Assembly (NCBI GenBank): GCA_903879715.1
Contig: CAIRMR010000097.1
Span: 1-64,000 of the forward strand
Length of the DNA stretch: 64,000 bases
Source: an uncultured Bacteroidales bacterium
GTDB taxonomy: Bacteria > Bacteroidota > Bacteroidia > Bacteroidales > UBA4417
Direction: 5' to 3'
Part shown: piece by piece, positions 14,101-38,529 of the stretch
Layout of the letters: each line of letters opens with the position of its first letter
How positions within the stretch are numbered: the first letter of the stretch is position 1
Translations under genes and position numbers: made by a program
The notes under the pieces: model-generated
What the model was told of the DNA's origin: nothing
What the model saw: the letters and a program-made list of their open reading frames with translations, nothing else
The model's database searches: none

Positions 14101-15167
14101 GTGCTTGTAAATGCCCTGAGGACTTCATCAAATTGCAGGTTCTGAAAATTAAAATAATGGTTCCCGCTGTTTAAGGCTTTAAATCCCAGGTAACACAGAA
14201 TCCCGCTACCGGTAATTCCTGAAACGGAAGCAAACGAGATGCGCATTACATTGGTACCCGTATTGTTTTGAATAGAAATATCGAAATCTCCTGCTTTAAC
14301 GCTTTGTTTAATTCCCGCTAAATTCCCATTGTAAGTGATCTCGAAATATCCGGAACGAACTTTGGTCCCGGGAGCAATCTCAATTTTCACAGGCAGGTAA
14401 AATGTGTCCTGTGGCCATGCATTTACTCGCATAACACTCATTTTGATAGCTCTTACATCAATATTCCCAGTCATGTATGATTTATCGCCATTTTTATCGG
14501 TAACAAATACTTTGGTATATCCGGGTGCTTTTGCTTTCACAACACTCTGGCTGCTCATAATGGCAATGGATGTGTCAGCTGTTGCATAAACAAATGGCGC
14601 AGTTCCGCCTGAAGTATACATCTGCGCCTCAGCGCCGACAAATAACTGGATATCATCAGGATAAATATCAGGGTACGAACGGGCATTCGCCTGAATATAG
14701 ACAGAATTCATAGTCATTGCAGGCAAACCTTCGTTCAGCAGGCTAATTCCAGAATTATAGTTTATGTATGTGCCACCAGGCTGTAAAGCCTTGAAACGGA
14801 GGTAAAACATTTTTCCTTTACTTGTAAGAGGGGAGGAGCCGGCTCCTGCAATAATTATGGAGCCCCTGGTAGTGTTGCTGAAAGTAGGCATTCCCCAATC
14901 ATACAATACTGAACCAACGGAATCAATATTCTGAAATTCAAGATAATCGGCGTTGAATGTAAATGCAAAGCGGAAGGCATAAATTCCTTTCCCGGTTAAA
15001 ACAGTATCTGCTTTTACCGCGATGGTAAACGTGTTTTTCTCGAGAACAGTCGCCCCTTCGATGCTAAAGCCTATCTTGGATTGTGCTGTTACGGTACCTG
15101 AAATGAGGAGCGTAAAACACCAAGCCCAGAAGCAGGAAGCAATTATATATCTGATCAGTTTCTTCAT
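11181..15167 (-). CDS. Secreted protein with three cohesin-like domains, PKD repeats and T9SS tail
   Basis: A 1,328-residue protein with a signal peptide (cleavage after VTAQ). Three cohesin-like modules (about residues 30-150, 240-350, 450-560) are separated by Big_2-like Ig domains; each has the pattern of a potential carrier fold, with an Ala/Gly-rich beta segment ending in a YLRFKAL, YLGFKAL or YLKFKLK strand. Three PKD/cadherin-like repeats follow (about 575-860), each starting near AGxxxxVxEGxxVxLDGS. Then come a DUF5018-like domain, a duplicated GWNWISLS / SGWNRIGY module with GSGWIGDL motifs, and a T9SS type A domain with VYPNPATDK. The last PKD repeat is closely related to the one in the giant gene downstream. 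The upstream neighbour carries a dockerin, so the natural inference is that this protein is a receptor for it. Cohesin assignment is by pattern and is less certain than the T9SS and PKD calls. Confidence 0.82.
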   Translation of the reverse strand: MKKLIRYIIASCFWAWCFTLLISGTVTAQSKIGFSIEGATVLEKNTFTIAVKADTVLTGKGIYAFRFAFTFNADYLEFQNIDSVGSVLYDWGMPTFSNTTRGSIIIAGAGSSPLTSKGKMFYLRFKALQPGGTYINYNSGISLLNEGLPAMTMNSVYIQANARSYPDIYPDDIQLFVGAEAQMYTSGGTAPFVYATADTSIAIMSSQSVVKAKAPGYTKVFVTDKNGDKSYMTGNIDVRAIKMSVMRVNAWPQDTFYLPVKIEIAPGTKVRSGYFEITYNGNLAGIKQSVKAGDFDISIQNNTGTNVMRISFASVSGITGSGILCYLGFKALNSGNHYFNFQNLQFDEVLRAFTSTEYVEVYYLPTLTISPNTGTMMWGTTQKIIVTNGTPPMVYTVSDPTLASIDVQGNLKGLSGGNVKVTATDFHGATKTSGDFLILDNQFSVVNMDGVLDGVTRVPISTSLLPAGKAVYDFDGSVSFNQNDLDFTGIEPVDANMLVNYSITGNIVHIVGASSIGIQSGIICYLKFKLKNTVALNQQTPITLNSLSANESTLHSTISSGKITRVIQVSYRPIAKAGLNKSVLEGETVQLDGSESYDLDANPLTFSWRAPTGIHMNDSTLKKPTFVAPDVKVNTNLIFTLVVNDGTSNSDPSTVTITVLQVNKRPVADAGSDISYNEGSSVSLSGSLSYDPDLDVISYKWTSLDGIILFDALGPTPSFIVPQVSANKIYRFKLEVSDGVLTSFPDTVKINVVNVNKIPLAFAGVDQTVNEGTLVQLDGSLSSDADNEPITFKWTAPSIVVLSSYTANKPTFTAPMVHRDSVIVISLVVHDGHASSNADQVSITIKNLDILSTAAQIIKTTLTGADSTKVDQVAQQVTLYMPYGADIRALAPTFQLSPKASVSPPGGTVQNFTSPVSYTITAEDGLTQKVFLVKVFVPTVSLKRSLSSGWNWISLSATPADMNVGTVLGGLSLANLDYIKSATTSAVYYTASGWFGDLSTLPQLDMLMFKKSTAGLFTISGKEINPTLTSIPVSSGWNRIGYIMKRNAAINQAFDPTTLPTGDILLKSKTASAIYYPGSGWIGDLDSMRVLNGYMMKTVSGSDIKYKASGAKVKSVQKLLTTQDDLYTLYNINPADFENSATLIGEIVNENSQNIIHQGDILIAYVGTARRGVTEARFVPDLNRYIFILTLFSNLNQEKMSFKLKTIDDNSEKEISDEVTFVSNEVFGQSMNPYPLQLLNATGLNGSGNEQSISVYPNPATDKFQIRSGYKISSVTISDLTGNSILCRSNISENMVAIDTRNLAPGLYLLKVETSNGTIVRKLVKSTK

Positions 15168-15329: not shown

Positions 15330-18300
15330 TTATTTTATCAGAAGTTTTTTCGAATAACTGAATTCTTCTCCCCTAATGGAAAGGATATAGACACCGCTGT
15401 GTGGATTTTCAAGATCAGTATAATTGAGATCAAGATTATGAACGCCTGAACTTAGATTTTTAACGGATCTCCGGTAAATAATCCTGCCTGTCATATCCAC
15501 AACCTGAACCTGGATATTCTGATTGGATATGGATAAGTTAAATATGGCATGAATACCATTCTGATCCGTGTAAGTTAATGGTTTCGCACTGTTCTGCAGG
15601 TTTTCAATGCCTGTTATACCCGAATTGCCGCTTATCTGGGCGATTGGAGGCAAATTGTTCAGGTAATAGTCGTTTGCCATGCCGAAAGTCAGTCCAAACT
15701 GAGATTCTGTTATACCTGAATCCTGGAATTCGAATTCAAGAACAAACGACTGGTTAACCAGGTTCAGATCGTAAGCTGATGCCATTGAAATCGTGATTTC
15801 ACTTTTCTGATCATCAAAACCGGTTGCAATTGAAAAATCTGCCGGTAGTCCTGATTTATTAAGTTGGATGAATTTAATATGATTTTCATCGATGGCAAAT
15901 TTCAAATCCAGCGCTTTAATTCCCTGAGCTGTTGAAATAGTTACAGGAATTTGGAATGTCTTCGTTGCAGGTTCGCTGATCTGGTCAGGATACGAAAATG
16001 TTGCAAGGTCATTTGCTAAAACAGATTTCTTGCCTGCCTGGGGATCAAAACGACTGATTAAACCGACGCTGTATTGAAGTATAAGCGATGCATCAAATGA
16101 TGAAACAACTCCATTTCCGCTAACATCGGCAACGCTTTTCTGTTTCGTGCTCAGAGTAATGTTGCCGGCGGCATACTGTAAAACAAGGGAAGCATCGTAA
16201 GGTTTAACTTCACCATTCATACTAACATCGCCCAATACTGGTTTAGCCAATTGCGTTGCCCAGGGAGTGAAAGTTACATAATCGGAAACGCGTTCTCCCG
16301 TTCCTGCTGGATTCGAAGTATGTTTAGGACCGGTATTACTGTTCCACCAGCAATTGATAGCAGTTACTGTATTAGTTGCAGTCTGATTATAAATTCCGTA
16401 ACCATTAGTTGGGTCAGTGCCAACAAAGTCGCAATTCGTAATTTTAGGTAACGAAGTATTACGCGCGATAATTCCATAGTAATTGCTCTCAAAAAGACAG
16501 TTTTTAATGGTAGGTGAAGAGTTGTCCAATGTTATAGCGCCTCGGTCGTATTGGGGATAATAATTATAATAATAGTTATACGTACCATCTTTCAGAATGC
16601 AGTTTTCGAGCCAACAGTTCTCATCAATCGACTCGTTTAAAAAATAGATTCCCTGCCAGTAGGATTTGTTTGGCAGGTTAGCGTCACCATCGCCATAAGT
16701 ATCGCCACCATAAAAATCATCGCGGTCAGCCGTAAATACAATTGTACTGTCTGTTGTGCTTCCTCCCTTGGCAATTAATCCGTTTTGGATATTGAGATAT
16801 CCGCTCGACATAAACTTGCAAACCACTCCGGGTTTAATCGTTAGTTTAGCACCGGTACCAACCGTATAATTCTGAAAAACATAAGGAATGTTTGCTTTTC
16901 CGGCAAAATCACGTTTAGGTAAGATAACATCCTGGGTTAGTGTTTCATCGGTGACACGAATAGCCCTGCCGGTTGTGCCGGAGATTATATTCCCTGTTGA
17001 AACTGAAGGATAGGTTACCAGTGAAGTTGTGAACGGGAAGGAAATATTGTTGAATGTACATCCTGTAATAGCTGGAGCACTCGATCCGGAAAGCGAAATC
17101 CCGGAATAGATAAGGTTTTCGAAGGCCGAATTCTGTATTTTGGGTGATGCATTGGTAAGCTGGATAGGAATGGCTGGCGAATACCTGAATAAAGCATGGT
17201 CTATTGTGCTCAGGTCATTTGATTCATCGTAAAAAACAAAATAAGCTCCGGAATTACTAAGTGCTGAATTCCCGTTTTGCTGCAAGTCTTTTGGATTTCC
17301 GTAGGCATCATCTTCCTGGGTGGTAAATACAACAGGTTTCAGTGCGGTTCCCTGTATTTCAAGTCTTCCTTTTATATACCAGATTCCGGGACCTTTAAAT
17401 GTAACTCCGGCAGGAATAGTCAGCTGATTGGTAACAGTCATTGCTTCTTCGGTGATGTATGTAATTGTATCATAACCTGCAAAACTTCTGATTGGAACCG
17501 TTCCCTGGATAGTCTGGCTGCGGATTAATAACCCGATCCGAGGGGTATTGGCAATTTTGTTTCCTGCGCCTGAAAAAACAGGACTCGAAAACATATCCAT
17601 ACATATAGGAGCATTAGCCAGGTTGTAGAACTGGCTGTTTGTAATTACCGGGTTGGCAGTGCCAAAAATGCCGAGGGCACAGGAATTGCTGAAGTTCACT
17701 TTAACTGAGTCAATACTCACTTTGCAATCGGTAATCCGTATGGCTCCTTTTGTGCCGTAGTAATAATAATTACCTGAGTAGCGTATTTCGAAATTCTTCA
17801 AAATGTTATTAACATCGCTTGCTGTTCCTGAATAATCAATTCCATACCAGTCACCCGAGGCAGGTGTGGTAGCAGTGCCGTTGTTGTTGCTGTCACCTGA
17901 AGCTGAATCATCTTTTGTAGAGGTAAAAATGATTTTGTTATTTGCTTTTCCTACAGCTTTCAGAGCTCCATTCACCACCAATAATCCATTGGATGTATAT
18001 TTTACAACAACTCCGGGATCAATGGAAACAACATCTCCCTCAGGAATAGTTTGCGTATTTTCAATTATGTAAGCCACGTTGGTAAACCCCGCAAAATCAA
18101 ACGATTTCAACGTAGGCGAATCTGTTCCGAATGAACCAATAATTATTCCTATATTCCCAACATTTGCTACCGTGTTTCCTATTAAAACAGGCGTTCCTTG
18201 ATTTACATTTCTTCCCAGTGGGTAAGCGTCGATATTAATAAATGAATTATTCAGAATCTGTGCGTTGTCACTAAAATTGACTGCACGAAAGGCGTTTTTG

Positions 18301-19877
18301 ATTTCACATTTACTTACGATATTGCCACTTGCAACAGATATAGCCCAATACCCAACATTGTCGCCAGGATATCCCCCGGCATACTGCATTTTCCAGTTTT
18401 CAATTTTTGATGTTTTTTTGCCGAAAAGATCAATCCTGCCGGCGCTGGAATGACTAACGGATTGAACTCCATCATTCTGTGAATCGAGTGGGTTTCCATA
18501 ATTATCATCGGCAATACTGGTAAATATTATAGGTTCCAGATCAGTTCCAAGGCCTGTTAAAGTACCGTTTGCAGTAATTCTGGCATTATAATCGCGGCAT
18601 TTTATTACCACTCCCGGATCAATAATGAGAGTTGCCGTATCAAGTACCGTTGTTAGACCACTGAGGCAATAACTTGGATTGTCAAGATTTTTGAACGATA
18701 ATTTTTTCAGACGGGCATCGTCAATCACATTTGAAGCCATAATTTTGACTGCCCTTATCTCTTTGTTATTAAATTTGATTGAGTCATTAGTAAAAACAGG
18801 AGCAGCATCCATACCCATGCTGATATTAAAACATTCACCGGATACTATTGAGGATACGTCGAAAGTACTGTTGGTAAAAATTGGCTTGCTCAAACCGTAA
18901 ACAACCAGGTTCCGGCCGTTATTTGTAAATTTACAGTTATCGATGCTTGGCGATGCCGAATTGATTTCCATCGCCGCATATTGATCATAGTCGTATGCAT
19001 AACTGTTTTTAAAGTTGCAGTACTTGAAAATACAAGCCGTATCAATTGAACTGGGGGTTACATTTATTCCAAGCCAATAGGATGCATTGGGTGATTTATC
19101 GAAGATAATAGGTTTGGCTGCTGTTCCGATTGCTTTAATTTTTCCACTGATATTAATTTCAGTATTAACAAGTCTCAATTCAACACCAGGTGAAATAAAA
19201 AGAGTACCCGTTTGGGCAACATTTAAAGTACTACAATAGTACGGTATTCCAATTTCCGGCAAATAAAAATTGCCTGGAATTTCAGAAAAATTCACGTAAA
19301 CATAATCACTGGTATTTCCTGTAAACTGGTTATTTATTCCAGTTTTAAGTTCACCCGGCCCATAGAAATAGATTGGATAATTGGTGTTTTTAATAGTTGT
19401 ATTTTCAATAAATAATTTGCCTGCGCCCGAAATCTGAACCCCATAATTGCTGAAATTGTTCAGGGTACATTTTTTTAAATTCAACTGCCCTTTCCTTGAA
19501 TACAAGTTGCTTGCATATTCAACAGTGCAACTGTCGAGAGTTACGCTACCGTTAAAACTGTATCCTTCGTACGAAACATAAATACCATCCCAGAAACCTT
19601 TTGTAGTGGAGGCATTGGCTGTAAATTTAACGCCCTTGGCATTTAAGGTTCCGAAAACCTGTAAATACACGCCTGAGTTAAACCTGATTTCAACCCCTTT
19701 TTCAATGGTAACAGTAGCCGTGCTACTAACATCCTGGTTTCCAGTTATAATATACGGACTGTTAGCTAATGTTAAAGTCCGGTCAACAGTAAAATAACCG
19801 CCAGGAATTGTGGTTTGTGCAAGTGATCCGAAAGTAAAAAGGAATGCACAAATGAGTAAAAGGGTAAACTTTTTCAT
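15330..19877 (-). CDS. Secreted beta-helix protein with dockerin, cohesin-like domain and T9SS tail
   Basis: A 1,515-residue protein with a signal peptide (cleavage after GSLAQ). Residues 25 to about 1200 are repeats of right-handed parallel beta-helix type, with recurring phrases such as GVVVKYTSNG, NGTLTGLGT and SPTIKNC that mark successive coils; this fold is typical of polysaccharide-binding or lyase-like surface proteins. At about residues 1214-1270 there is a type I dockerin with two F-hand loops, GDVSMNGEVKPYDASLVLQY and ADVSGNGVVSSFDASLILQY, each with Asp at loop positions 1 and 12 and Asn at 5. A cohesin-like domain follows (about 1285-1400), then a T9SS tail ending YSKKLLIK. It is the first gene of the cluster read leftward. 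The downstream gene carries three cohesin-like domains, suggesting a surface complex. No catalytic residues are claimed. Confidence 0.86.
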   Translation of the reverse strand: MKKFTLLLICAFLFTFGSLAQTTIPGGYFTVDRTLTLANSPYIITGNQDVSSTATVTIEKGVEIRFNSGVYLQVFGTLNAKGVKFTANASTTKGFWDGIYVSYEGYSFNGSVTLDSCTVEYASNLYSRKGQLNLKKCTLNNFSNYGVQISGAGKLFIENTTIKNTNYPIYFYGPGELKTGINNQFTGNTSDYVYVNFSEIPGNFYLPEIGIPYYCSTLNVAQTGTLFISPGVELRLVNTEINISGKIKAIGTAAKPIIFDKSPNASYWLGINVTPSSIDTACIFKYCNFKNSYAYDYDQYAAMEINSASPSIDNCKFTNNGRNLVVYGLSKPIFTNSTFDVSSIVSGECFNISMGMDAAPVFTNDSIKFNNKEIRAVKIMASNVIDDARLKKLSFKNLDNPSYCLSGLTTVLDTATLIIDPGVVIKCRDYNARITANGTLTGLGTDLEPIIFTSIADDNYGNPLDSQNDGVQSVSHSSAGRIDLFGKKTSKIENWKMQYAGGYPGDNVGYWAISVASGNIVSKCEIKNAFRAVNFSDNAQILNNSFINIDAYPLGRNVNQGTPVLIGNTVANVGNIGIIIGSFGTDSPTLKSFDFAGFTNVAYIIENTQTIPEGDVVSIDPGVVVKYTSNGLLVVNGALKAVGKANNKIIFTSTKDDSASGDSNNNGTATTPASGDWYGIDYSGTASDVNNILKNFEIRYSGNYYYYGTKGAIRITDCKVSIDSVKVNFSNSCALGIFGTANPVITNSQFYNLANAPICMDMFSSPVFSGAGNKIANTPRIGLLIRSQTIQGTVPIRSFAGYDTITYITEEAMTVTNQLTIPAGVTFKGPGIWYIKGRLEIQGTALKPVVFTTQEDDAYGNPKDLQQNGNSALSNSGAYFVFYDESNDLSTIDHALFRYSPAIPIQLTNASPKIQNSAFENLIYSGISLSGSSAPAITGCTFNNISFPFTTSLVTYPSVSTGNIISGTTGRAIRVTDETLTQDVILPKRDFAGKANIPYVFQNYTVGTGAKLTIKPGVVCKFMSSGYLNIQNGLIAKGGSTTDSTIVFTADRDDFYGGDTYGDGDANLPNKSYWQGIYFLNESIDENCWLENCILKDGTYNYYYNYYPQYDRGAITLDNSSPTIKNCLFESNYYGIIARNTSLPKITNCDFVGTDPTNGYGIYNQTATNTVTAINCWWNSNTGPKHTSNPAGTGERVSDYVTFTPWATQLAKPVLGDVSMNGEVKPYDASLVLQYAAGNITLSTKQKSVADVSGNGVVSSFDASLILQYSVGLISRFDPQAGKKSVLANDLATFSYPDQISEPATKTFQIPVTISTAQGIKALDLKFAIDENHIKFIQLNKSGLPADFSIATGFDDQKSEITISMASAYDLNLVNQSFVLEFEFQDSGITESQFGLTFGMANDYYLNNLPPIAQISGNSGITGIENLQNSAKPLTYTDQNGIHAIFNLSISNQNIQVQVVDMTGRIIYRRSVKNLSSGVHNLDLNYTDLENPHSGVYILSIRGEEFSYSKKLLIK

Positions 19878-27151: not shown

Positions 27152-29086
27152 ATGAAACGAATCTTTCTCAGGAATTACCGGCATATCATTATTCTTCCTT
27201 TCCTTTTACTTCCTTATGCATTATCAGCACAGACATTTAATTTTGGATGGACCGGTACAGAACTGGTGCTTAAAGCCACATTTCTGAATCCGTCAAACTG
27301 GACCACTAATGTCGCTAATACAGGCTTAGGTGATAAGAGTGTTGTTTCTGTGAGTGTTGACACATTAAAGCTAAACTGGACCTTTGGCACAGGTAACCGG
27401 GCTAAATGGGCACAGTGTTATCTTCCTTTGAATCAGACTATTTCGCTTGTAGATTACGATCTTTTTTGTTTTGATCTGAAAGGTTTGCCAAACAACGGTT
27501 ATGTGGGCTTCGAATTGAAATTTGAAGATGGTACTTATCAGGCAGTGGCTCGCTGGGATGGTCTTGCCGGGCTCAACCGATGGGCTGAAAAAATTTCTGT
27601 GGCAAAAAAGCAATTCGAAAATTCAGCCCTTATGGATTGGAGTAAGATCCGGGTTATTTCACTTGCTGTTTATGCGCAGGCTTCTGCTCAGTATGTTAAT
27701 ACCGATCTGGGTTCAGTAAGTATCCATAACCTGGTTGGCACTAAGATGGCTGACTGGCAGCGCGGAACTTCCCGGGAATTTATTAATCCGAATGATTATG
27801 TTACAATTAAAAATAATGCCATAAGCGCGATAATCAACCGGCAAAAATCTACCGGGCTCCTTACTACATGGAACGAGGATAATTCTTCCTGGCTTTATGG
27901 GCAAGGTTTAGCCTTGAAGGCTCTGTGTTATGAGGGGACATGGAGCCAGGGGATAGCCAGCAATGCAGCTGCTATAGCAGCCGAAAAATTAGCAGTCTTC
28001 CTACTCAATCACCAGCAACCGGAAGGATACTGGCCACGGGCATGGAATTCAGTATCCGGAGCAATTACCGTCCTTCGGGAAGCAGACGGAACTGTATGGA
28101 TGGGAGATTTTCCCTGGATAATAACCGGGTTACAGGCATATTATAAAAAGAGCGGCGATCAACGGGTTATACCATCAATAAATAAGGCTCTAGATTTTCT
28201 TAAAGGATTGATTAATCCCGATGGAAATTTCTTTACTGTGAATCCCCAAACCGGTATTAAGAATGAGGTGGCGAGTTGTGAAGCTTATGCCGCTGCAATA
28301 CTTAGTCTTTATGAATCCGGCGAAACAGCGATTGCCAGTAATATGTTCAGCTTTATAAGTACTCATGGCTGGGATTCAGAGTTGCGCTGCTGGCGCGAAG
28401 CCACTTATTCTGACCGTATAGTTCTCTTTGCCAATACCTGGATGTCGTATTACAATTTTCAGAACGGAGATATACAAAAGGGTTTAGATGCTCTTTCACT
28501 TGCTGGAAAAGTACTATACACCCATGGAAACGGTGAACTTTATGGAATGGATGGCATAGTTCCGTTAGCTGTTTGGTACGAGGGAACACTCACTTACATT
28601 GCTGCAGGTGGTCCCGGAAGTATTGCTTTGTTTGAAGAATTGCGAACTCATATTAATTCCGATGGAATGGTTTCTCATTACAACGAAAACCTGGGAGGAA
28701 TGGGTGGTATATGGGCTGTTGACTGGCATAGCCTCGATGGAACTTCCTGGCTTTATTTCACAACTGCAGGAAAATCACCGTTTGATGTAATGGAGGGTAT
28801 TCCAGTTCAAGTACAACCACTTCAAGCAGCTGAGAATAAAAGAAATTTCATTATTTCTGTTCCACGCTCCGGAGAACTGCTTATCAAGCCAATAAAACTG
28901 ATCCGCAAAAAAATGATTATCCGGGTAATACAATCGGATGGCAGGATAATTTCAGAAAGCAAAGTCCCAGCTAATTCAGGCGAGATAACTCTTGAGATTT
29001 CAGCAGGAAAAACTGCGGGTAGAGTTGTTTTCATTCAAATTGTCAGCAATGATCTAATTGAATGTTATCCGATGTATTTACACTAA
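27152..29086 (+). CDS. Secreted alpha/alpha-barrel glycosidase-like protein
   Basis: A 644-residue protein with a signal peptide (cleavage after ALSAQ). Residues 25-195 form a beta-sandwich resembling a carbohydrate-binding or galactose-binding-like module (VDYDLFCFDLKGLPNNGYVGF). Residues 210-550 are rich in paired amphipathic helices with repeats such as WLYGQGLALKALCYEG, HQQPEGYWPRAWNS, WITGLQAYYKKSGD and NTWMSYYNFQNGD, the pattern of an (alpha/alpha)6 or six-hairpin glycosidase barrel. The closing WAVDWHSLDGTSWLYF would complete it. The C-terminal 85 residues look like a beta domain related to T9SS tails but lack YPNP and end in CYPMYLH. I do not recognise the GH family and name no substrate. 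It is flanked by long gaps, so transcribed alone. Confidence 0.72.
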   Translation: MKRIFLRNYRHIIILPFLLLPYALSAQTFNFGWTGTELVLKATFLNPSNWTTNVANTGLGDKSVVSVSVDTLKLNWTFGTGNRAKWAQCYLPLNQTISLVDYDLFCFDLKGLPNNGYVGFELKFEDGTYQAVARWDGLAGLNRWAEKISVAKKQFENSALMDWSKIRVISLAVYAQASAQYVNTDLGSVSIHNLVGTKMADWQRGTSREFINPNDYVTIKNNAISAIINRQKSTGLLTTWNEDNSSWLYGQGLALKALCYEGTWSQGIASNAAAIAAEKLAVFLLNHQQPEGYWPRAWNSVSGAITVLREADGTVWMGDFPWIITGLQAYYKKSGDQRVIPSINKALDFLKGLINPDGNFFTVNPQTGIKNEVASCEAYAAAILSLYESGETAIASNMFSFISTHGWDSELRCWREATYSDRIVLFANTWMSYYNFQNGDIQKGLDALSLAGKVLYTHGNGELYGMDGIVPLAVWYEGTLTYIAAGGPGSIALFEELRTHINSDGMVSHYNENLGGMGGIWAVDWHSLDGTSWLYFTTAGKSPFDVMEGIPVQVQPLQAAENKRNFIISVPRSGELLIKPIKLIRKKMIIRVIQSDGRIISESKVPANSGEITLEISAGKTAGRVVFIQIVSNDLIECYPMYLH

Positions 29087-29646: not shown

Positions 29647-29663
29647 TGTTGATATAATCAACA
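29647..29663. promoter_or_regulatory. Distal dyad TGTTG-N7-CAACA, candidate activator site
   Basis: A perfect 5-bp inverted repeat with a 7-base centre (29652-29658), centred at 29655. A second dyad with the same arms and spacing is centred at 29744. Both are upstream of a sigma-54-like promoter, where NtrC-type activators usually bind. Confidence 0.55.
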
Positions 29664-29735: not shown

Positions 29736-29752
29736 TGTTGAATAATACAACA
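29736..29752. promoter_or_regulatory. Proximal dyad TGTTG-N7-CAACA, candidate activator site
   Basis: Identical arms and spacing to the dyad 89 bases upstream, extended by one further pair (G at 29735, C at 29753). It lies about 110 bases before the predicted transcription start. The sigma-54 activator encoded at 36511 is the natural candidate to bind it. Confidence 0.55.
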
Positions 29753-29828
29753 CTATACCTGTAAATAAATTATACATTATATTTTGTAAGGTGCAGATAT
29801 ATAGTTAGTTAAAATTGATTTTTCGTTT

Positions 29829-29844
29829 TGGCACTGTAATTGAA
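29829..29844 (+). promoter_or_regulatory. Near-consensus sigma-54 promoter
   Basis: TGGCAC (-24 element, 29829-29834) is followed after 5 bases by TTGAA (-12 element, 29840-29844). The spacing is exactly that of the sigma-54 consensus TGGCACN5TTGCA; the one departure is A for C in the -12 GC. Transcription would start near 29855, 26 bases before the ATG. Confidence 0.5.
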
Positions 29845-29880: not shown

Positions 29881-31560
29881 ATGAAAACAAAAATCGTAAC
29901 ATCAGCCGTAATTCTTCTGATTCTGGTTTGTGGAAGTGTCAAAAGCCAGGAAGTTTCAGGCACAACTGCTGCAAAGCAAACTGAAACATTAACTATTTCA
30001 TGCACTTCTGACCTGTTTCCAATAACTTCGCAATGGGCCAATGTATATCGCAGTCTTAAACCTGAGGTTAAAATCAATGTTAGTACAATTGAAGATAAAA
30101 GCATAAATCAGGGTGAAGGTGACGATTTACGGATTGTAACTAACAACCCGGATGGAAAAATTAATGAAAAGGATTGGAAAATGGTGGTTGGCAGGGATGT
30201 GATAGTTCCGATTATGAATTCAGGGAATCCATTTTTGATACAATTGATGCAGCAGGGCATTTCACCAGAGAAGTTTGCTAAAATATTCAATAATCCTGAT
30301 AAGCAGAATTGGGGAGCATTACTTGCTGATGGACAAAATGCAGTAATTCATATTTATGTGGTTAACGATGAATCTGTGAAGAACGGAATCGCAAAATTCC
30401 TGAAATCAAAACAGATTCCATCAACAGGAATTATCGTTGGAACTAAAGATGAAGTTATTTCCGCTATTCAGAAAGACCCAACTGCAATTGGATTTTGCAA
30501 AGTTGTAAATGTAATTGAACCGGATAACCAGAGCTTGGTTGCCAATATCAAAATGTTGCCTATTGATAAAAACGGGAATGGTACTATTGATTATATGGAG
30601 GATATTTACACTGATGTAAATGCATTCCTTCGTGGAGTATGGATCGGCAAATACCCCAAAGCTTTGTATTCCAATATTTATGCAGTCAGCAAAGTTCAAC
30701 CTGCTAATGAAACGGAAATGGCATTTTTGTCATGGATTATAACTGATGGACAGCAATTTATGAATTCAAACGGATACTGTGCCCTGGTAAATACCGAAAG
30801 TCAGGCGCAGCTAAATAAGATCAGCACTGCAATTGTAAGTGTTTCGCCAGCTACTAACACTACCAGGACTGGTTTGATATTGTTAATCATGGCTTTGGTA
30901 ATCACCATGGGTGTAGTTATCACAGCCGGTGTTCGACGTTACAGAAAACAAGCACCTGCAATCCCTGATTTTAATGATTCATTAACCGGTTTTAACGAAA
31001 ATTCTATAGAAGTGCCAAAAGGTATATATTTTAACAGATCCCATAGCTGGGCATTTATGGAAAAAGACGGAAACGTTTCTATTGGAATTGACGATTTTTT
31101 GCAACATGTTACCGGACCGTTAACCCGTGTCGAAATGAGAAATGCTGGAGAAAAAGTCAAAAAAGGGGAGCTCCTGTTTTCTATAGTTCAATTTGGCAAG
31201 CGGTTGAGTTTGTATTCACCTATTTCGGGAATTATTAAACAACAAAATGAAACACTTATTCAGGATGCATCAAAGATCAATTCTTCACCATATTCTGACG
31301 GATGGATTTATCGGATTGAGCCCTCGAACTGGTTTGTGGAAGTGAATTTTATGGACATGGCAGACAAATATAAAAAGTGGATAAATACTGAATTCTCCAG
31401 AATGAAAGATTTTCTCGCTGCTACTCTAAAACCCGATAGTCTGGAATACTCGCATGTTGTTCTACAGGATGGCGGTATTGTTAAGGAAGGGGTCCTGGCT
31501 GATTTCGGACCAGAGGTATGGGACGATTTTCAAACCAATTTCCTCGAAATTTATAAATAG
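29881..31560 (+). CDS. Binding-protein-like / transmembrane / GcvH-like fusion protein
   Basis: A 559-residue protein. A signal peptide or anchor (1-23) precedes a PstS-type periplasmic binding-like domain (about 35-320) with TLTISCTSDLFPITSQW near its start. Inside it is a canonical EF-hand-like loop, DKNGNGTIDYME (229-240). A transmembrane helix (about 330-350, LILLIMALVITMGVVITAGV) leads to a GcvH-like domain (about 375-485) recognisable by RSHSWAFMEKDGNVSIGIDDF and LYSPISGIIKQQNETL. A Lys (FGKRL) lies near the position lipoylated in GcvH, one residue closer to the SPISG turn. The last 70 residues (LQDGG, W-DFQ-FL motifs) are shared with the second GcvH-like gene of this operon. First gene of the operon; a sigma-54-type promoter precedes it. 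The role is unknown: glycine cleavage is not implied, and phosphate transport is unlikely. Confidence 0.8.
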   Translation: MKTKIVTSAVILLILVCGSVKSQEVSGTTAAKQTETLTISCTSDLFPITSQWANVYRSLKPEVKINVSTIEDKSINQGEGDDLRIVTNNPDGKINEKDWKMVVGRDVIVPIMNSGNPFLIQLMQQGISPEKFAKIFNNPDKQNWGALLADGQNAVIHIYVVNDESVKNGIAKFLKSKQIPSTGIIVGTKDEVISAIQKDPTAIGFCKVVNVIEPDNQSLVANIKMLPIDKNGNGTIDYMEDIYTDVNAFLRGVWIGKYPKALYSNIYAVSKVQPANETEMAFLSWIITDGQQFMNSNGYCALVNTESQAQLNKISTAIVSVSPATNTTRTGLILLIMALVITMGVVITAGVRRYRKQAPAIPDFNDSLTGFNENSIEVPKGIYFNRSHSWAFMEKDGNVSIGIDDFLQHVTGPLTRVEMRNAGEKVKKGELLFSIVQFGKRLSLYSPISGIIKQQNETLIQDASKINSSPYSDGWIYRIEPSNWFVEVNFMDMADKYKKWINTEFSRMKDFLAATLKPDSLEYSHVVLQDGGIVKEGVLADFGPEVWDDFQTNFLEIYK

Positions 31561-31610: not shown

Positions 31611-32480
31611 ATGGATTTACATCGTCGTGACTTCTTCAGGTTCATTGGTGCTACAGGATTAACCCTGGCAGTAGGGAAAGAATTGAATGCGGCACCAAAA
31701 GCAAAAAATGATCCGGAGTTGAGAGGCGTTCTGTATGACGCTGCCCGATGCAAAGGCTGCCGTGGCTGCGAATACGATTGCGCTGATGCAAACGGGTTGC
31801 CCGAACCGCCCCCTAACAAAGAAATCAAAGGTTTTAGAAAAACTGATGATAAACACCGAACCGTTGTTAATGAATTTAAAACATCGAAAGGTATTGTGTA
31901 TGCCAAAACGCAATGTATGCATTGCAATGAGCCTGCCTGTGCCGCAGCTTGTCTTACCCAGGCTATGACAAAAACTAAGGATGGACCGGTAATCTGGCGG
32001 AGCGATAAATGCATGGGATGCCGTTATTGCATGGTTTCATGCCCTTTCGATATTCCAAAGTTTGAGTTCCACAGCGCAAACCCGAAAATTGAAAAATGCA
32101 CTATGTGCTACGAAAGCAGGTTGAAAAAAGGTGAACTTCCTGCCTGTGTTGAAAATTGTCCCAACGAAGCCCTGATGTTTGGTACCCGCAGGGAATTAAT
32201 ACAGGAAGCAAGGAGACGTATGTTTGATAAGCCGGACCTGTATTATGACCAAATCTATGGCGAACGCGAAGCCGGAGGAACCAGTTGGCTTTATATATCA
32301 CCTGTGCCATTTAACGAAATCGGATTGAATACAAAAGTTCAAACTGGATCGTACCCTGCACTCACAAAGGGGTTTTTATATACAGTGCCCAGTGTTTTTG
32401 TACTGGTTCCGGCACTTTTATTAGGTATTCAGCAATCAACTAAAAAGGAAAACCACACAAACGATAACGGCGATGAATAG
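31611..32480 (+). CDS. Tat-exported four-cluster ferredoxin (HybA/DsrO-type)
   Basis: A 289-residue Fe-S electron-transfer subunit. The N-terminus HRRDFFRFIGATGLTLAVG is a Tat signal, placing the mature protein outside the cytoplasmic membrane. Four [4Fe-4S] sites are visible: CKGCRGCEYDC, CMHCNEPACAAAC, CMGCRYCMVSCPF and CTMCYESRLKKGELPACVENC. A C-terminal hydrophobic segment (FLYTVPSVFVLVPALLLGI, about 256-274) may anchor it. This layout is typical of HybA, HmcB and DsrO-like partners of NrfD-type subunits. Its last 8 bases overlap the start of the NrfD gene, so the two are translationally coupled. It should pass electrons between a periplasmic partner and the membrane subunit. Confidence 0.93.
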   Translation: MDLHRRDFFRFIGATGLTLAVGKELNAAPKAKNDPELRGVLYDAARCKGCRGCEYDCADANGLPEPPPNKEIKGFRKTDDKHRTVVNEFKTSKGIVYAKTQCMHCNEPACAAACLTQAMTKTKDGPVIWRSDKCMGCRYCMVSCPFDIPKFEFHSANPKIEKCTMCYESRLKKGELPACVENCPNEALMFGTRRELIQEARRRMFDKPDLYYDQIYGEREAGGTSWLYISPVPFNEIGLNTKVQTGSYPALTKGFLYTVPSVFVLVPALLLGIQQSTKKENHTNDNGDE

Positions 32481-33744
32481 CGGTCATTTAATTTCGGCAG
32501 ACAATGATGGGAAACCCATCTGGAAATTCCTGATATGGGAATTGAAACCTAGAGGCAAATGGCTGACCCCTTTTAACATCATTTCCATACCAATCATACT
32601 TTTAGGCATTTTCCTGATAGTAATCCGTTTCTGGAAAGGGATCGGATCCATCACTAATCTTTCACAGGAAATTCCCTGGGGATTGTGGATCGGATTTGAC
32701 GTGGTGACTGGTGTTGCCTTTGCAGGTGGTGCTTACGTGGTTACTTTTATGGTCTATATCCTAAATATGAAAAAGTACCAGTCCATTGTCAGGGTTACGG
32801 TACTTAACGGTTTTCTTGCCTACCTGTTTTATGCGGGAGCCCTGCTTTTAGATCTTGGTCGCCCATGGAATGTGATCAATCCGATTATCGGAAACAATTT
32901 TGGCGTAAGCTCAGTTTTGTTCCTTGTTGCCTGGCATTTTCTGCTTTACATGATAGCTCAGCTGATTGAGATTTCGCCGGCCATTGCAGAGTGGCTAGGG
33001 GCAAGACGTGCGCGGAAAATCCTTTCCGGCATGACGCTGGCGGCGGTAATATTCGGGATTACTTTGTCAACGCTACATCAATCAGGTTTAGGAGCTCTTT
33101 TCCTGATGGCGAAGGAGAAAATTCATCCGCTCTGGTACTCTGAATTTATTCCCATCATGTTTTTTGTTTCCAGCATTTTTGCCGGACTTTCGATGGTTAT
33201 TTTTGAAGGATCCATAAGCGGGAAAGTGTTTGCAAACCAGATCAGTGATAAAAACAAAAAAGCTGAGAACGGAATTATTCATGGCTTGGCCAAAATATGT
33301 ACAGGTACCATGTTTGCTTATTTTTTCCTGCAGTTGCTTGTTTTTATTCATGGTAAACACTGGGACCTGCTCAACACACCAATGGGGCACTGGTTCTTAT
33401 TGGAAATGATTGGTTTTGTGCTGTTGCCGATGATGCTCTATTTTTATAGCTACAGGAAAAACAGTGTATTCCTGATCCGGTTGGCATCCATACTTACGAT
33501 GGTGGGTATAGTATTGAACAGGCTTAATGTAACCGTAATCGGTTTCAGATGGGATATGCCAGTTCGCTATGTCCCGTCGTGGATGGAACTTGTAGTTACT
33601 TTCACTGTCCTGTTTACTGAAATCTGGATCTTCCGCTGGGTAGTTAACCGTATGCCGGTTCTGCGTGAATCGCCTAATTGGGTGAAGGAAGAAAAACAAC
33701 AACAGCAGCAGCCGGCATTTGGGAAACAACATCAGAGAGCTTAA
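32473..33744 (+). CDS. NrfD/HybB-type integral membrane quinone-interacting subunit
   Basis: A 423-residue membrane protein with about nine or ten hydrophobic helices, including FNIISIPIILLGIFLIVIRF, GLWIGFDVVTGVAFAGGAYV, and FAYFFLQLLVFIHG. The pattern and the IPWGLWIGFDV and LDLGRPW motifs are those of the NrfD/PsrC (HybB) family, which exchange electrons with the menaquinone pool. It overlaps the ferredoxin gene by 8 bases. The C-terminus is hydrophilic and Gln-rich (KQQQQQPAF-like). No molybdopterin or multiheme partner gene lies in the window, so the terminal donor or acceptor is unknown. Confidence 0.93.
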   Translation: MNSGHLISADNDGKPIWKFLIWELKPRGKWLTPFNIISIPIILLGIFLIVIRFWKGIGSITNLSQEIPWGLWIGFDVVTGVAFAGGAYVVTFMVYILNMKKYQSIVRVTVLNGFLAYLFYAGALLLDLGRPWNVINPIIGNNFGVSSVLFLVAWHFLLYMIAQLIEISPAIAEWLGARRARKILSGMTLAAVIFGITLSTLHQSGLGALFLMAKEKIHPLWYSEFIPIMFFVSSIFAGLSMVIFEGSISGKVFANQISDKNKKAENGIIHGLAKICTGTMFAYFFLQLLVFIHGKHWDLLNTPMGHWFLLEMIGFVLLPMMLYFYSYRKNSVFLIRLASILTMVGIVLNRLNVTVIGFRWDMPVRYVPSWMELVVTFTVLFTEIWIFRWVVNRMPVLRESPNWVKEEKQQQQQPAFGKQHQRA

Positions 33745-33929: not shown

Positions 33930-34664
33930 ATGGACGGATTCACTTATACTAATATTTTTGAAACCAAAGGAATTGAGTACCTGGTAATAATAGCCTTCCT
34001 TTTACTGCTCATTCCTTTCTGGGTTTCGCTGAACAGGCAGGTAAAAATAAAAGAACAGATGAGAAAAGCAATGGGTGTTCTTTCGCTTGGTATCTTAAAA
34101 GTTGAGCAGGGAATTTTTTACAGCAGGAATCATACCTGGGCTTATCTTGAAAAATCTGGCAATGCAAAGGTTGGATTGGATGACCTTTTGCTTCATATCA
34201 CCGGCGAGGTGAAAGTCCGCCATTTGAAAAATCCCGGCGAAAGTATCTGTAAAGGCGAATTGTTGGCCGAAGTGGATCAGAATGGGAAATCGCTTCAGAT
34301 ATTTTCACCTATTTCGGGAATGGTAATTGACTCAAATCCGGCTTTGGATGAGAATTACACCTTGCTTAACGAAGATCCATACGGGAAAGGATGGATTTAT
34401 AGCTTAAAACCCACAAACTGGATTGCAGAAATACCTTCGCTGTACCTGGCCGATGAGGCTACCAACTGGATAAAGAAAGAGCTGGAACGGTATAAAGATT
34501 TCCTTGCACTAAACATGGGAAAACATATGCCTGGTAATTCTATAGATATACTCCAGGATGGTGGTGAATTAGCAGATAATTCTTTAGCCGAATTACCAAA
34601 AGAAATGTGGCATGATTTTCAGAAAGAATTCCTGAATCCTCAAAGAGAGCATCTGAACAACTAA
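33930..34664 (+). CDS. Membrane-anchored GcvH-like protein with LQDGG C-terminal domain
   Basis: A 244-residue protein: an N-terminal transmembrane helix (about 15-33, YLVIIAFLLLLIPFWVSL), a GcvH-like beta-barrel domain (about 55-165) with SRNHTWAYLEKSGNAKVGLDDL and FSPISGMVIDSNPAL, and a C-terminal domain with RYKDFLAL, ILQDGGEL and MWHDFQKEFL. The same three-part C-terminal half is found in the first gene of the operon (29881). A Lys (NGKSL) lies at the equivalent of that protein's Lys, one residue off the GcvH lipoyl site. The protein probably faces the cytoplasm and could carry a lipoyl-type arm or be a structural subunit. It is not the glycine-cleavage H protein: no gcvT or gcvP is nearby and it is membrane-anchored. 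Confidence 0.83.
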   Translation: MDGFTYTNIFETKGIEYLVIIAFLLLLIPFWVSLNRQVKIKEQMRKAMGVLSLGILKVEQGIFYSRNHTWAYLEKSGNAKVGLDDLLLHITGEVKVRHLKNPGESICKGELLAEVDQNGKSLQIFSPISGMVIDSNPALDENYTLLNEDPYGKGWIYSLKPTNWIAEIPSLYLADEATNWIKKELERYKDFLALNMGKHMPGNSIDILQDGGELADNSLAELPKEMWHDFQKEFLNPQREHLNN

Positions 34665-34734
34665 GCAAACATTTATAAGGGATGATTTAATTGTATCCCT
34701 GCAACGAATTAGTTGAAAATTTATACAAAAAAAT

Positions 34735-34828: not shown

Positions 34829-36499
34829 ATGAAAGTCTTTCATAAATCTAAAGATAATCAAGGAAAAGCCGGCGCATCTTTCGGGCGGTATTTGCGTTTC
34901 GGGCGTTCCATTTATGGACGCGTGGTACTTATTATCGCCATACTGTCTGTGTTCCTGTTTGTTTCATTTGGTATTATTTTCCGATCCGTTTACGAACAAT
35001 ACCTGAATACAGTTATCCTGCAAAGCGGAAATAATGTAGGCTCGCTTGTTGAAGGTGCTTTGTACCACTCGATGATGGAAAACGACGAAGGCGCACTCCA
35101 GAATACACTCGATGTAATTCATACACTGCCTGGTATTGACGATGTGAATATGTACGACAGCAACGATAGTCTTATTTATTCTTCTTTTTCACCTGATACT
35201 GCTACTGACATCAATCCGAATTGTAAAAGTTGTCACAAAAACATGGCAACTATGTTTCCCGGTAAAGAGAAATCGTACAAAATTATTAAAGCTGACAGCG
35301 AATGTAAGATGAGTAAAGTGCCTAGTGGACAAAGGCATCTGCTGATCCGTTCACCTATACTTAATTCGAAATCCTGTTACGAAAGCTCATGCCATTATCA
35401 TGCTAAAACCGACAAAATTTTAGGTTCGCTGGTAATTAAAGTTCCTTTGAAAGACCTGGATGCTGCTGTTAAAAAGTCATCCCTCGAATTCTATCTGCTG
35501 GCTATTTTAACAACTCTTTTATTGGCTTCATTTTTAGTGCTCTTCACCCGGAAAGAGATAAAAGATCCCCTGGGAGAACTGATCAAAGCCAGTATTGCAG
35601 TTGCCAGCGGAGATAAAAATACCCGGGTCGAAATAAAACCCAATCAACTGGATGATATGCGGATGGTTTCAGTGGCATTTAACGATATGCTTGATAATTT
35701 GCAGACTGCAACTACCGAATTGGAAAACTGGTCGCAGCAGCTCGAATATAAAGTTCAGAAAAAATCGGAGGAATTGGGAACTGCCCAAAGTGAGTTGATT
35801 CATATCGAACGTCTTGCATCGCTAGGGAAATTGTCATCTTCGGTGGCTCACGAGATAAACAATCCATTGTCAGGAATACTGGTCTATACCAAGTTGGTCC
35901 ATAAGCTTCTTAGTAATCCTGATCTCACAGATGCCAAAAAGGAAGTAATGCTAAAGCATCTGAAAATGATTGAGGCTGAAACCAAGCGTTGCGGTGATAT
36001 CGTTAAAGGCTTGCTCGATTTCTCGAAAAAAGATCAGGAAGATTTTGAACCGAAGCATCTTCACGAAATCCTGCACGAAACCTATGATCTGATGTCGCAC
36101 CCGGTAAAGATTGCGAATATTAGCCTATTGACTGATTTTACTGCAAAATCAGATTTGATCTATTGCAGCCCGAACCAGATTAAGCAAGCCTGTGTGGCAA
36201 TGCTTGTTAATTCAACGGAAGCTATAACGGAGAATGGCGAAATTGTGGTAAGGACTTCAAACCCTGATCAGGATATTATAAAGCTCGAAATATCCGATAA
36301 CGGAATTGGTATTTCGGACGAGGATATACCGCATATTTTCGAGCCTTTCTTTTCAACAAAGCAGCAGGTACGCGGAATCGGGCTGGGACTGCCCATTGTT
36401 CATGGCATTATACAAAGCCATAAAGGGAAAATCCAGGTTAAGTCCGAACCCGGTCAAGGCACTACTATTTCAATCCTATTACCTATAATCAGAAGTTAA
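34829..36499 (+). CDS. Sensor histidine kinase with di-heme-type periplasmic domain
   Basis: A 556-residue kinase from the ATG at 34829. A first transmembrane helix (about 32-52) precedes a periplasmic Cache/PAS-like sensor domain with two c-type heme motifs: C132-K-S-C135-H136 (CXXCH) and C183-x4-C188-H189 (CX4CH, the variant known from cytochrome c3). A second helix (about 220-241), a HAMP domain, the H-box (SSSVAHEINNPLSG) and a HATPase domain with N-box MLVNSTEAI and G-boxes DNGIGI and GIGLGLPI complete it. The domain should sense redox state or a small ligand such as NO through heme. It is followed 11 bases later by the sigma-54 activator, its likely partner. Heme attachment is inferred from the motifs. 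Confidence 0.9.
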   Translation: MKVFHKSKDNQGKAGASFGRYLRFGRSIYGRVVLIIAILSVFLFVSFGIIFRSVYEQYLNTVILQSGNNVGSLVEGALYHSMMENDEGALQNTLDVIHTLPGIDDVNMYDSNDSLIYSSFSPDTATDINPNCKSCHKNMATMFPGKEKSYKIIKADSECKMSKVPSGQRHLLIRSPILNSKSCYESSCHYHAKTDKILGSLVIKVPLKDLDAAVKKSSLEFYLLAILTTLLLASFLVLFTRKEIKDPLGELIKASIAVASGDKNTRVEIKPNQLDDMRMVSVAFNDMLDNLQTATTELENWSQQLEYKVQKKSEELGTAQSELIHIERLASLGKLSSSVAHEINNPLSGILVYTKLVHKLLSNPDLTDAKKEVMLKHLKMIEAETKRCGDIVKGLLDFSKKDQEDFEPKHLHEILHETYDLMSHPVKIANISLLTDFTAKSDLIYCSPNQIKQACVAMLVNSTEAITENGEIVVRTSNPDQDIIKLEISDNGIGISDEDIPHIFEPFFSTKQQVRGIGLGLPIVHGIIQSHKGKIQVKSEPGQGTTISILLPIIRS

Positions 36500-36510
36500 G
36501 GAAACTAATT

Positions 36511-37845
36511 ATGGAAAAGAAAATATCGATATTGATTGTCGACGATGAAGAATCCGTCAGGGAATCACTGAACCTTTGGTTTACTGAAGATGGTTACCGG
36601 GTTGAATGTGCCGAAAACGCAAAACAAGCCCTGTCAATTCTCGAATCGGACGTTTTTGACATCATTCTCACTGATCTCAAAATGCCTGGCATGGACGGAT
36701 TGGAATTGCTCCAGCGGATCAAAACGCTTAACAAGGATTCGATAATTATTGTAATGACGGCTTTTGCCACCGTTGATACAGCCGTCAGAGCATTAAAGGA
36801 AGGCGCATTCGATTATGTCACAAAACCTTTTGATCCGGATGATTTATCACACCTGATCCGGAATGCTACAAAGCAGATTTCGCTGGCACAGGAAAACGAA
36901 ACGTTAAAGAAACGGGTCGACTCATTGGAAAGTGTCGAGGACCTGATTGGCAAAAGTGAAGCTATTAAACTGGTATTAAAAGAAGTTGAAAGCGTGGCTC
37001 CGACAAATTCGTCGGTTATAATTACCGGCGAAAGCGGCACAGGTAAAGAACTTGTCGCAAGGGCTATTCACGCTAATTCGCTTCGCAAATTCTATCCATT
37101 GGTAAGTGTACATTGCGGAGCTCTCACCGAAAGTTTATTGGAAAGTGAGTTGTTCGGACACGAAAAAGGCGCCTTTACCGGAGCATTATACAACCGCAAA
37201 GGCCGTTTCGAGATGGCCGACAGCGGCACTATTTTCCTGGATGAAATTGCCACCATTTCGCAAAAGATGCAGGTTGAACTTTTACGCGTTTTGGAAACAA
37301 AGAGATTTATGCGGGTAGGAGGGAACAAGGAAATTTCTTCCGATTTTCGGGTCATTTGTGCAACAAACCGCGATCTGAAAGGCATGGTTGAGAAGGGAAC
37401 TTTCCGCGAGGATTTGTATTACCGGCTTAATGTGATGAATATTCATGTGCCGCCATTGCGCGAACGCATTGAAGATATTCCGTTGCTTGTCGATTATTTC
37501 ATTAAAAAGTATTGTACATCAATGAATAAGCCGCTCATTACTATTGAGCCGGCAGCGTTGAAACGTATCATAGGATACCAGTTTCCCGGCAATATACGTG
37601 AACTGGAGAATATGATAGAACGCGCAATTGTGGTTGGAAGCGGGAAGAAAATAGTATTGAAAGATTTACCTTTTGGTAAGGATACTATTGATAGTTCAGT
37701 CGAAAGCCTTGATGATTTTGAAAAAGCGTTTATCCTTCAGATTCTGAATAAATACAGCTGGAATATTTCGCGTACGGCTCATGCGTTAAAGGTGGATAGG
37801 GTTACGCTTTATAATAAGATCAAGAAATATGGGCTGAAGGCGTGA
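36511..37845 (+). CDS. NtrC-family sigma-54-dependent response regulator
   Basis: A 444-residue regulator. The receiver domain has D11-D12 and phospho-acceptor D55 in ILTDLKMPG. The AAA+ domain has Walker A GESGTGKE, the sigma-54 contact loop GAFTGA, Walker B GTIFLDEI, and the arginine-finger region. A Fis-type helix-turn-helix ends the protein (NISRTAHALKVDRVTLYNKI). It is activated by its kinase and opens sigma-54 promoters. The nearest sigma-54-like promoter is at 29829, upstream of the Fe-S/NrfD operon, with paired dyads at activator-site distance. It is 11 bases after the kinase gene. Confidence 0.95.
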   Translation: MEKKISILIVDDEESVRESLNLWFTEDGYRVECAENAKQALSILESDVFDIILTDLKMPGMDGLELLQRIKTLNKDSIIIVMTAFATVDTAVRALKEGAFDYVTKPFDPDDLSHLIRNATKQISLAQENETLKKRVDSLESVEDLIGKSEAIKLVLKEVESVAPTNSSVIITGESGTGKELVARAIHANSLRKFYPLVSVHCGALTESLLESELFGHEKGAFTGALYNRKGRFEMADSGTIFLDEIATISQKMQVELLRVLETKRFMRVGGNKEISSDFRVICATNRDLKGMVEKGTFREDLYYRLNVMNIHVPPLRERIEDIPLLVDYFIKKYCTSMNKPLITIEPAALKRIIGYQFPGNIRELENMIERAIVVGSGKKIVLKDLPFGKDTIDSSVESLDDFEKAFILQILNKYSWNISRTAHALKVDRVTLYNKIKKYGLKA

Positions 37846-37995: not shown

Positions 37996-38529
37996 ATGAA
38001 TGCTCCAGCAATAACAATCTTGTCTTTTGGCCGTTTCGAAAGAGGATTTCTTGAGAAGATATCCGAAGTTGTTATGCAGGAATATAACTGCACTGTCACT
38101 ATCAAGGAAGCGCATGTTGATATAAGCGAATATTATGATCCGGTTCGCAGGCAATACAATGGCAATAAGCTGCTTAACGAAGTTGCTTCCCTGAATATAG
38201 CAGGTAATTCCAAAACAATTGGATTATTTAGTGTTGATCTCTTTATTCCTATTCTTACTTTTATCTTCGGGCAGGCGCAATTAGGCGGACGTTCGGCAAT
38301 TGCTTCGCAATACAGGTTGAGTAACGAAAGGTACGGAATGCCTGTGGATGAAAACCTGTTGTTGCAGCGGTTTGCAAAGGAAGTTATTCATGAACTCGGG
38401 CATACTTTGGGATTGATTCATTGCCACACTCCAACATGTGTTATGCGATCAAGTACATATGTGGAGGATATTGATCAGAAAGAGGCGCAGCTTTGTGCAA
38501 AATGCCGTGATGAGTTGATTAAGATTTGA
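37996..38529 (+). CDS. Archaemetzincin-type zinc metalloprotease
   Basis: A 177-residue protein of the archaemetzincin (AmzA) family of small zinc aminopeptidase-like proteins. The catalytic zinc motif H132-E-x2-H136-x5-H142 is followed by a four-Cys structural zinc site (HCHTPTCVMRSS, then CAKC). An early aromatic/acidic segment (VDISEYYDPVRRQYNGNKLL) fits the family's N-terminal strand-helix. No signal peptide, so cytoplasmic. Length matches the family. It is more typical of archaea and sporadic in bacteria. The substrate is unknown. It is convergent with the next gene, with a hairpin between. Confidence 0.9.
   Translation: MNAPAITILSFGRFERGFLEKISEVVMQEYNCTVTIKEAHVDISEYYDPVRRQYNGNKLLNEVASLNIAGNSKTIGLFSVDLFIPILTFIFGQAQLGGRSAIASQYRLSNERYGMPVDENLLLQRFAKEVIHELGHTLGLIHCHTPTCVMRSSTYVEDIDQKEAQLCAKCRDELIKI

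Follow-up and report, generated by a model that had tools for sequence, protein, structure and literature searches.

The open reading frame at positions 29881 to 31560 of a contig from an uncultured Bacteroidales bacterium encodes a real and conserved joining of a PstS-like domain, a membrane helix and an H-protein-shaped domain, and is the first gene of a conserved seven-gene operon in Bacteroidales. The operon order is the fusion, an HmcB/HybA-like FeS protein, an NrfD protein, a second transmembrane (TM)-anchored H-protein, a histidine kinase, an NtrC-type regulator and an archaemetzincin. We favor, at a probability of about 0.5, a reading of the whole as an NrfD/FeS complex that is linked to quinone, in which the fusion spans the membrane as a subunit and haem-driven positive feedback acts on the operon's own promoter; the complex is far less certain than the operon, the loss of both active sites and the architecture of the promoter. 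The features lie in the window, i.e. the whole stretch of 64,000 nucleotides that was analysed:

29647-29663, no strand: distal palindromic site TGTTGATATAATCAACA, proposed regulator-binding site, at fixed spacing 181 bp upstream of the sigma-54 box
29736-29752, no strand: proximal palindromic site TGTTGAATAATACAACA, putative regulator site, at fixed spacing 92 bp upstream of the sigma-54 box
29827-29843, + strand: sigma-54 type promoter TTTGGCACTGTAATTGA; this box recurs in 58-59 of the 75 homologous upstream regions, against fewer than 1 expected, a partly circular count, as the final pattern was taken from the window and then applied to the others
29881-31560, + strand: fusion protein, 559 aa, with signal peptide, PstS-like domain, TM helix, non-lipoylated H-protein domain and helical tail
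29980-30840, + strand: PstS-like periplasmic domain, residues 34-320, phosphate-site residues lost (fold match; alignment with standalone PstS)
30565-30600, + strand: EF-hand-like loop DKNGNGTIDYME, residues 229-240, conserved and common to standalone PstS
30865-30945, + strand: TM helix, residues 329-355, ending near RRYRK (AlphaFold2 model; sequence)
31006-31392, + strand: H-protein-like domain, residues 376-504, with Gly439 at the lipoyl Lys position (fold match; alignment)
31393-31557, + strand: family-specific helical tail, residues 505-559, with LQDGG motif (QDGG in 74 of 77 fusions)
31611-32480, + strand: 4Fe-4S protein, HmcB/HybA-like, bearing a Tat signal and a hydrophobic anchor at the C-terminus (NF045715, E 3e-97, under the cut-off)
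32473-33744, + strand: NrfD/HmcC-like integral membrane subunit (PF03916, E 2.5e-15; NF045714, E 5e-119, below cut-off)
33930-34664, + strand: second TM-anchored H-protein-like protein, 244 aa (PF01597, E 3e-21), lipoyl Lys absent
34829-36499, + strand: histidine kinase with predicted Cache-like periplasmic sensor, CxxCH and CX4CH (motifs in homologues; fold neighbours)
36511-37845, + strand: NtrC-type sigma-54 response regulator (profile matches)
37996-38529, + strand: archaemetzincin (peptidase M54) with HExxH and Cys4 zinc signature (PF07998, E 5e-23)

Architecture and distribution of the fusion

The translation of 29881-31560 runs without a stop for 559 aa, and two Pfam models pass their cut-offs on it, PBP_like_2 at residues 28-289 (E 4e-10) and GCV_H at 383-501 (E 2e-22). 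The AlphaFold2 model, built on a 65-sequence homologue alignment, has a mean pLDDT of 81 and a helix at 329-355, and its fold matches were obtained with Foldseek and VIA-align. The frame, coordinates and domains given in the sequence-only reading of this DNA are thus correct, and its proposal that a PstS-like part outside the membrane is genuinely fused to an H-protein-like part inside agrees with Pfam, the model and the fold matches alike. The RRYRK stretch at the helix end, together with the positive-inside rule, suggests that the C-terminus lies inside.

Full-length fusions are present in 37 of 393 genomes of the order Bacteroidales, with identities of 33-57% outside self, and a few further fusions in the same genomes are partial or split by contig ends. 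The distribution was surveyed within Bacteroidota, where a scan of named genomes yielded 80 fusion loci, all in metagenome-assembled genomes and many in genomes titled Bacteroidales or Prolixibacteraceae. The earlier reading had named a misassembled fusion as one of the outcomes that would undo it. Misassembly or chance read-through of unrelated genes is vanishingly improbable and was ruled out, because the identical architecture recurs in the 37 genomes of the order and in the 80 named loci. The architecture had also been called non-standard, and indeed the fusion is a member of no known family tested: it departs from them in the lipoyl Lys, the PstS residues, HmcA and the HmcB/HmcC cut-offs.

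Directly upstream of the fusion, at 27152-29086, is a gene for a 644-aa secreted protein, which is found upstream in close relatives only and has no match in Pfam at E 1 and none in NCBIfam. Elsewhere in the window, two adjacent secreted-protein genes on the - strand, at 11181-15167 (cohesin domains) and 15330-19877 (dockerin domain), both carry Por secretion tails.

Two folds without their usual site residues

Residues 376-504 superpose on H-protein 3a8j_E with Z 21.9 and an rmsd of 1.4 A over 127 residues, in a hybrid-barrel fold. The domain is thus like GcvH in fold and in its Pfam model, and differs from it in the membrane anchor, the LQDGG helical tail, the missed equivalog cut-off (TIGR00527, 67.2 bits against 115.85) and the replacement of the lipoyl Lys by Gly. 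This column is Gly in all 77 readable fusions and Gly, Asp or Asn, never Lys, in 63 second H-proteins. The replacement rules out a standard GcvH, and the alignment predicts that the domain is not a working GcvH. Lys440, the neighbour of the lipoyl residue, does not vary among the fusions of Bacteroidales, and the corresponding residue in distant relatives is Lys, Arg, Asn or other; Lys440 of the fusion could conceivably carry an unusual modification. The C-terminal LQDGG tail is common to both H-proteins, with QDGG in 59 of the 63 second ones.

A PDB sequence search with the periplasmic binding-protein (PBP) half gave no match, whereas the fold search did: in the AlphaFold2 model, residues 34-320 align with the phosphate-binding protein 4jwo at Z 23.0 and 4.0 A over 266 residues, so structure prediction, which the sequence-only reading had proposed as a check, returns a binding-protein fold. 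We aligned 41 fusions with 27 standalone Bacteroidota PstS-like proteins, some encoded beside permease genes. The 27 standalone proteins keep S40-G41-A42 at a strand end, the GGxGKG loop, S87, R161-S-D and G166-A167, and in the same alignment S40-G41-A42, GGxGKG, S87, R161 and G166-A167 are not conserved in the fusions, where G104-R105, C206, RGVWIGK at 251-257 (W254 and its surroundings) and E306 are newly conserved. This residue conservation rules out a standard PstS, and the domain is predicted not to be a working one. The fusion shares with PstS the fold and the D-x-N-x-N-G-x-I-D-x-x-E loop, but has lost the oxyanion-site residues, is membrane-anchored and has no pst transporter genes adjoining. 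Since the oxyanion residues are lost, a phosphate-type signal through the domain is unlikely. The proposal that the layout could carry a signal across the membrane to a GcvH-like effector therefore survives in part: the layout is able to couple both sides of the membrane, but a usual GcvH effector and a phosphate-type signal do not fit these substitutions. Locus L219 encodes a standalone PstS-like protein of 322 aa with MWLGKFP and an altered GGAGKG loop, features that lie between a normal PstS and the fusion domain, and this protein is a possible intermediate.

In the loop at 229-240, D229, N231, N233 and E240 are invariant among 65 fusions, and the 12-residue pattern was found in 73 of 77. 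Pfam EF-hand models hit residues 228-240 below their cut-off (E 0.04-0.06), and in the AlphaFold2 model no helix enters the loop and the following helix begins only at 246; the low score and the missing flanking helix indicate a Ca-loop-like motif and not a helix-loop-helix EF-hand. The residues D229, N231, N233, G234, D237 and E240 are conserved in both the fusions and the standalone PstS-like proteins, so the loop is inherited, and a fusion-specific device is ruled out. The EF-hand-type sequence and its position had been read correctly; the loop is no peculiarity of the fusion.

The operon, its putative haem-type kinase and its promoter

Gene-neighbour clustering across 81 loci recovered the six neighbours of the fusion in fixed order; per-gene counts (e.g. 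FeS in 46 loci) are lower bounds, since the greedy ORF calling sometimes took an antisense ORF in place of a gene and some contigs stop short. That the fusion gene opens a redox and two-component operon with a sigma-54 promoter of its own had escaped the sequence-only reading. At locus L135, the kinase, regulator and protease sit upstream instead. The FeS and NrfD proteins match HmcB/HmcC and HybA/HybB models, with HmcB and HmcC best, at 325 of 420 and 398 of 550 bits, which fall short of the equivalog cut-offs. Like the Hmc complex and HybA/HybB of hydrogenase-2, the operon encodes a multi-cluster FeS protein, exported by Tat, and next to it a membrane subunit of NrfD type; unlike them, it has no hydrogenase or HdrD-like subunit and adds two TM-anchored H-proteins, a kinase, a regulator and a protease. 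No HmcA multihaem cytochrome or catalytic subunit was found in the conserved operon. The archaemetzincin scores 169 bits with NF033823 (cut-off 145), and the signature HExxHxxGx3Cx4CxMx17CxxC (PMC4681839), with the last gap allowed to be 15-18, is present in 58 of 60 homologues. A literature search for GcvH with NrfD, Hmc, archaemetzincin or response regulator, largely outside subscription journals, returned no paper on the operon, which is apparently undescribed so far: its parts are known, and the assembly is not in the literature searched.

The kinase ORF opens at 34691, and homologue lengths favor the ATG at 34829. Its periplasmic part contains CxxCH in 68 of 68 homologues and CX4CH in 67, both motifs occurring together in 67 of 68. 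The predicted sensor (model pLDDT 74) has WalK and GSU0935 as fold neighbours. GSU0935 and GSU0582 are described as c-haem sensors (PMC3460858), and haem-Cache domains fused to signaling modules are reported to bind NO (preprint PMC12889525). The kinase may resemble these c-haem Cache sensors (sCache_heme, PMC12889525) in its predicted Cache/PAS-like periplasmic fold with CxxCH, and differs in the additional CX4CH and in not matching the Pfam haem-Cache model (DUF3365). By analogy, redox state or NO is a plausible input.

The two upstream palindromes read TGTTG-N7-CAACA. At least one strict copy is present in 46 of 75 homologous upstream regions (block-shuffled sequences, ~0), the spacing to the sigma-54 box is 91-93 or 179-183 bp in nearly all regions, and with one mismatch allowed a palindrome stands at those distances in 54 of 58 regions with the box, counts that overstate independence because the motifs were first read in the window or near relatives and the loci are kin by descent. 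Spacing is independent of the circularity in the box pattern; a first pattern, TGGNA-N7-TGC, was found in only 6 of 75 upstream regions because the -12 element here ends TTGA. A wider regulon was ruled out in this genome, in which the palindrome occurs 16 times and only the operon's copies are intergenic and beside a sigma-54 box. Across 198 genomes, composite patterns hit the fusion promoter in five and, apart from that, only one site, before a truncated fusion remnant. Most likely, as the simplest reading, the operon autoregulates through its own regulator, which is predicted to bind the palindromes. The remnant (L237:8082-8582, genome G425) is a decayed copy that keeps the promoter motif ahead of a PBP fragment of 167 aa, and no other part of the operon was found beside it. 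At L144 and L145, an extra TGTTG-N7-CAACA precedes the kinase gene by ~68 bp, unaccompanied by a sigma-54 box.

Relatives and the proposed redox-signaling complex

Ten genomes of the order (among 393), and others across the phylum, carry this operon with no PBP domain. A second type of module combines FeS and NrfD with a protein bearing 13 CxxCH motifs, the kinase with its two haem motifs and two H-proteins joined to receiver (REC) domains; it was seen at L168, L171, L172, L176 and L178-L182, often beside 16- and 19-haem proteins, with L180 having no 13-haem protein. In the NrfD tree, 37 PBP rows form one supported clade, which includes one member lacking PBP, and three other PBP rows group with long branches, so the PBP domain was possibly gained once or twice. 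The H-protein partner in relatives is none, PBP or REC, which marks the N-terminal partner as exchangeable and suggests an input role for it, and the fusion of REC to both H-proteins in the distant module ties the H-proteins to phosphorelay.

Such exchangeability is what would be expected if the PstS-like domain were a ligand receptor acting on the haem kinase in the manner of ArrT, with the H-protein passing the message inward and the NrfD complex as regulated output. PBP-dependent two-component systems exist (ArrT with ArrS/ArrR, PMC5492636), in which, as here, a binding-protein-like partner is encoded with kinase and regulator, and the newly conserved GR 104-105, C206 and RGVWIGK 251-257 could form a new ligand site. 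However, the binding-protein domain here is anchored to an H-protein domain alongside an NrfD complex, the operon also occurs without it, the kinase already owns a haem-type sensor and the canonical PstS ligand residues are lost; we consider this receptor role rather unlikely. An energy-conserving respiratory complex, in which NrfD and FeS mediate electron exchange of quinone with periplasmic cytochromes, the H-proteins stand in for the cytoplasmic Hmc subunits and the two-component system merely induces it, would suit the best matches to HmcB and HmcC and the multihaem cytochromes that often adjoin relatives (L148, L152, L174; the 13-CxxCH protein of the second type). It appears still more doubtful, as the cytochrome is absent from the operon, the equivalog cut-offs are missed and the REC-H-protein fusions are left unexplained.

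In the reading that we prefer, the fusion would span the membrane as a subunit of a redox complex that is linked to quinone and also contains NrfD and the FeS protein exported by Tat; electrons may flow through this complex. Its PstS-like domain would act as a periplasmic adapter or sensor without the usual phosphate binding, perhaps for another ligand, with the Ca-type loop as a structural element that may bind Ca2+, and the H-protein domains of the fusion and of the second H-protein would form a cytoplasmic scaffold with no lipoate in the normal place. The kinase would sense redox conditions in the periplasm, or a gas, for example NO, via a putative c-type haem, and the NtrC-type regulator would then switch on the operon's own sigma-54 promoter; the archaemetzincin, co-produced, may process or turn over a component. 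This reading draws on the conservation of the operon, the Hmc/Hyb matches, the Lys-to-Gly change, the oxyanion loss, the box-palindrome spacing, the kinase haem motifs with their GSU0935-like fold and the REC-H-protein fusions; the missing catalytic subunit and multihaem cytochrome, the unmatched haem-Cache model and the invariant Lys440 count against it. Only tentatively, we suggest an undescribed class of transmembrane redox-signaling complex, in which non-lipoylated H-proteins would be a reusable cytoplasmic adapter linking an NrfD/FeS quinone module to a c-haem kinase, with exchangeable inputs (none, PBP outside or REC inside).

Many NrfD-type complexes have unknown partners, and the present analysis defines a complete conserved cassette together with the logic of its promoter, so that its function is addressable by one deletion or reporter experiment. 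In its first gene, PstS and H-protein folds, both without their usual ligand or cofactor residues, are joined across the membrane. Should the H-protein domain serve as the adapter that links the redox complex to the kinase, its fold would acquire a new function beyond glycine cleavage and lipoate chemistry.
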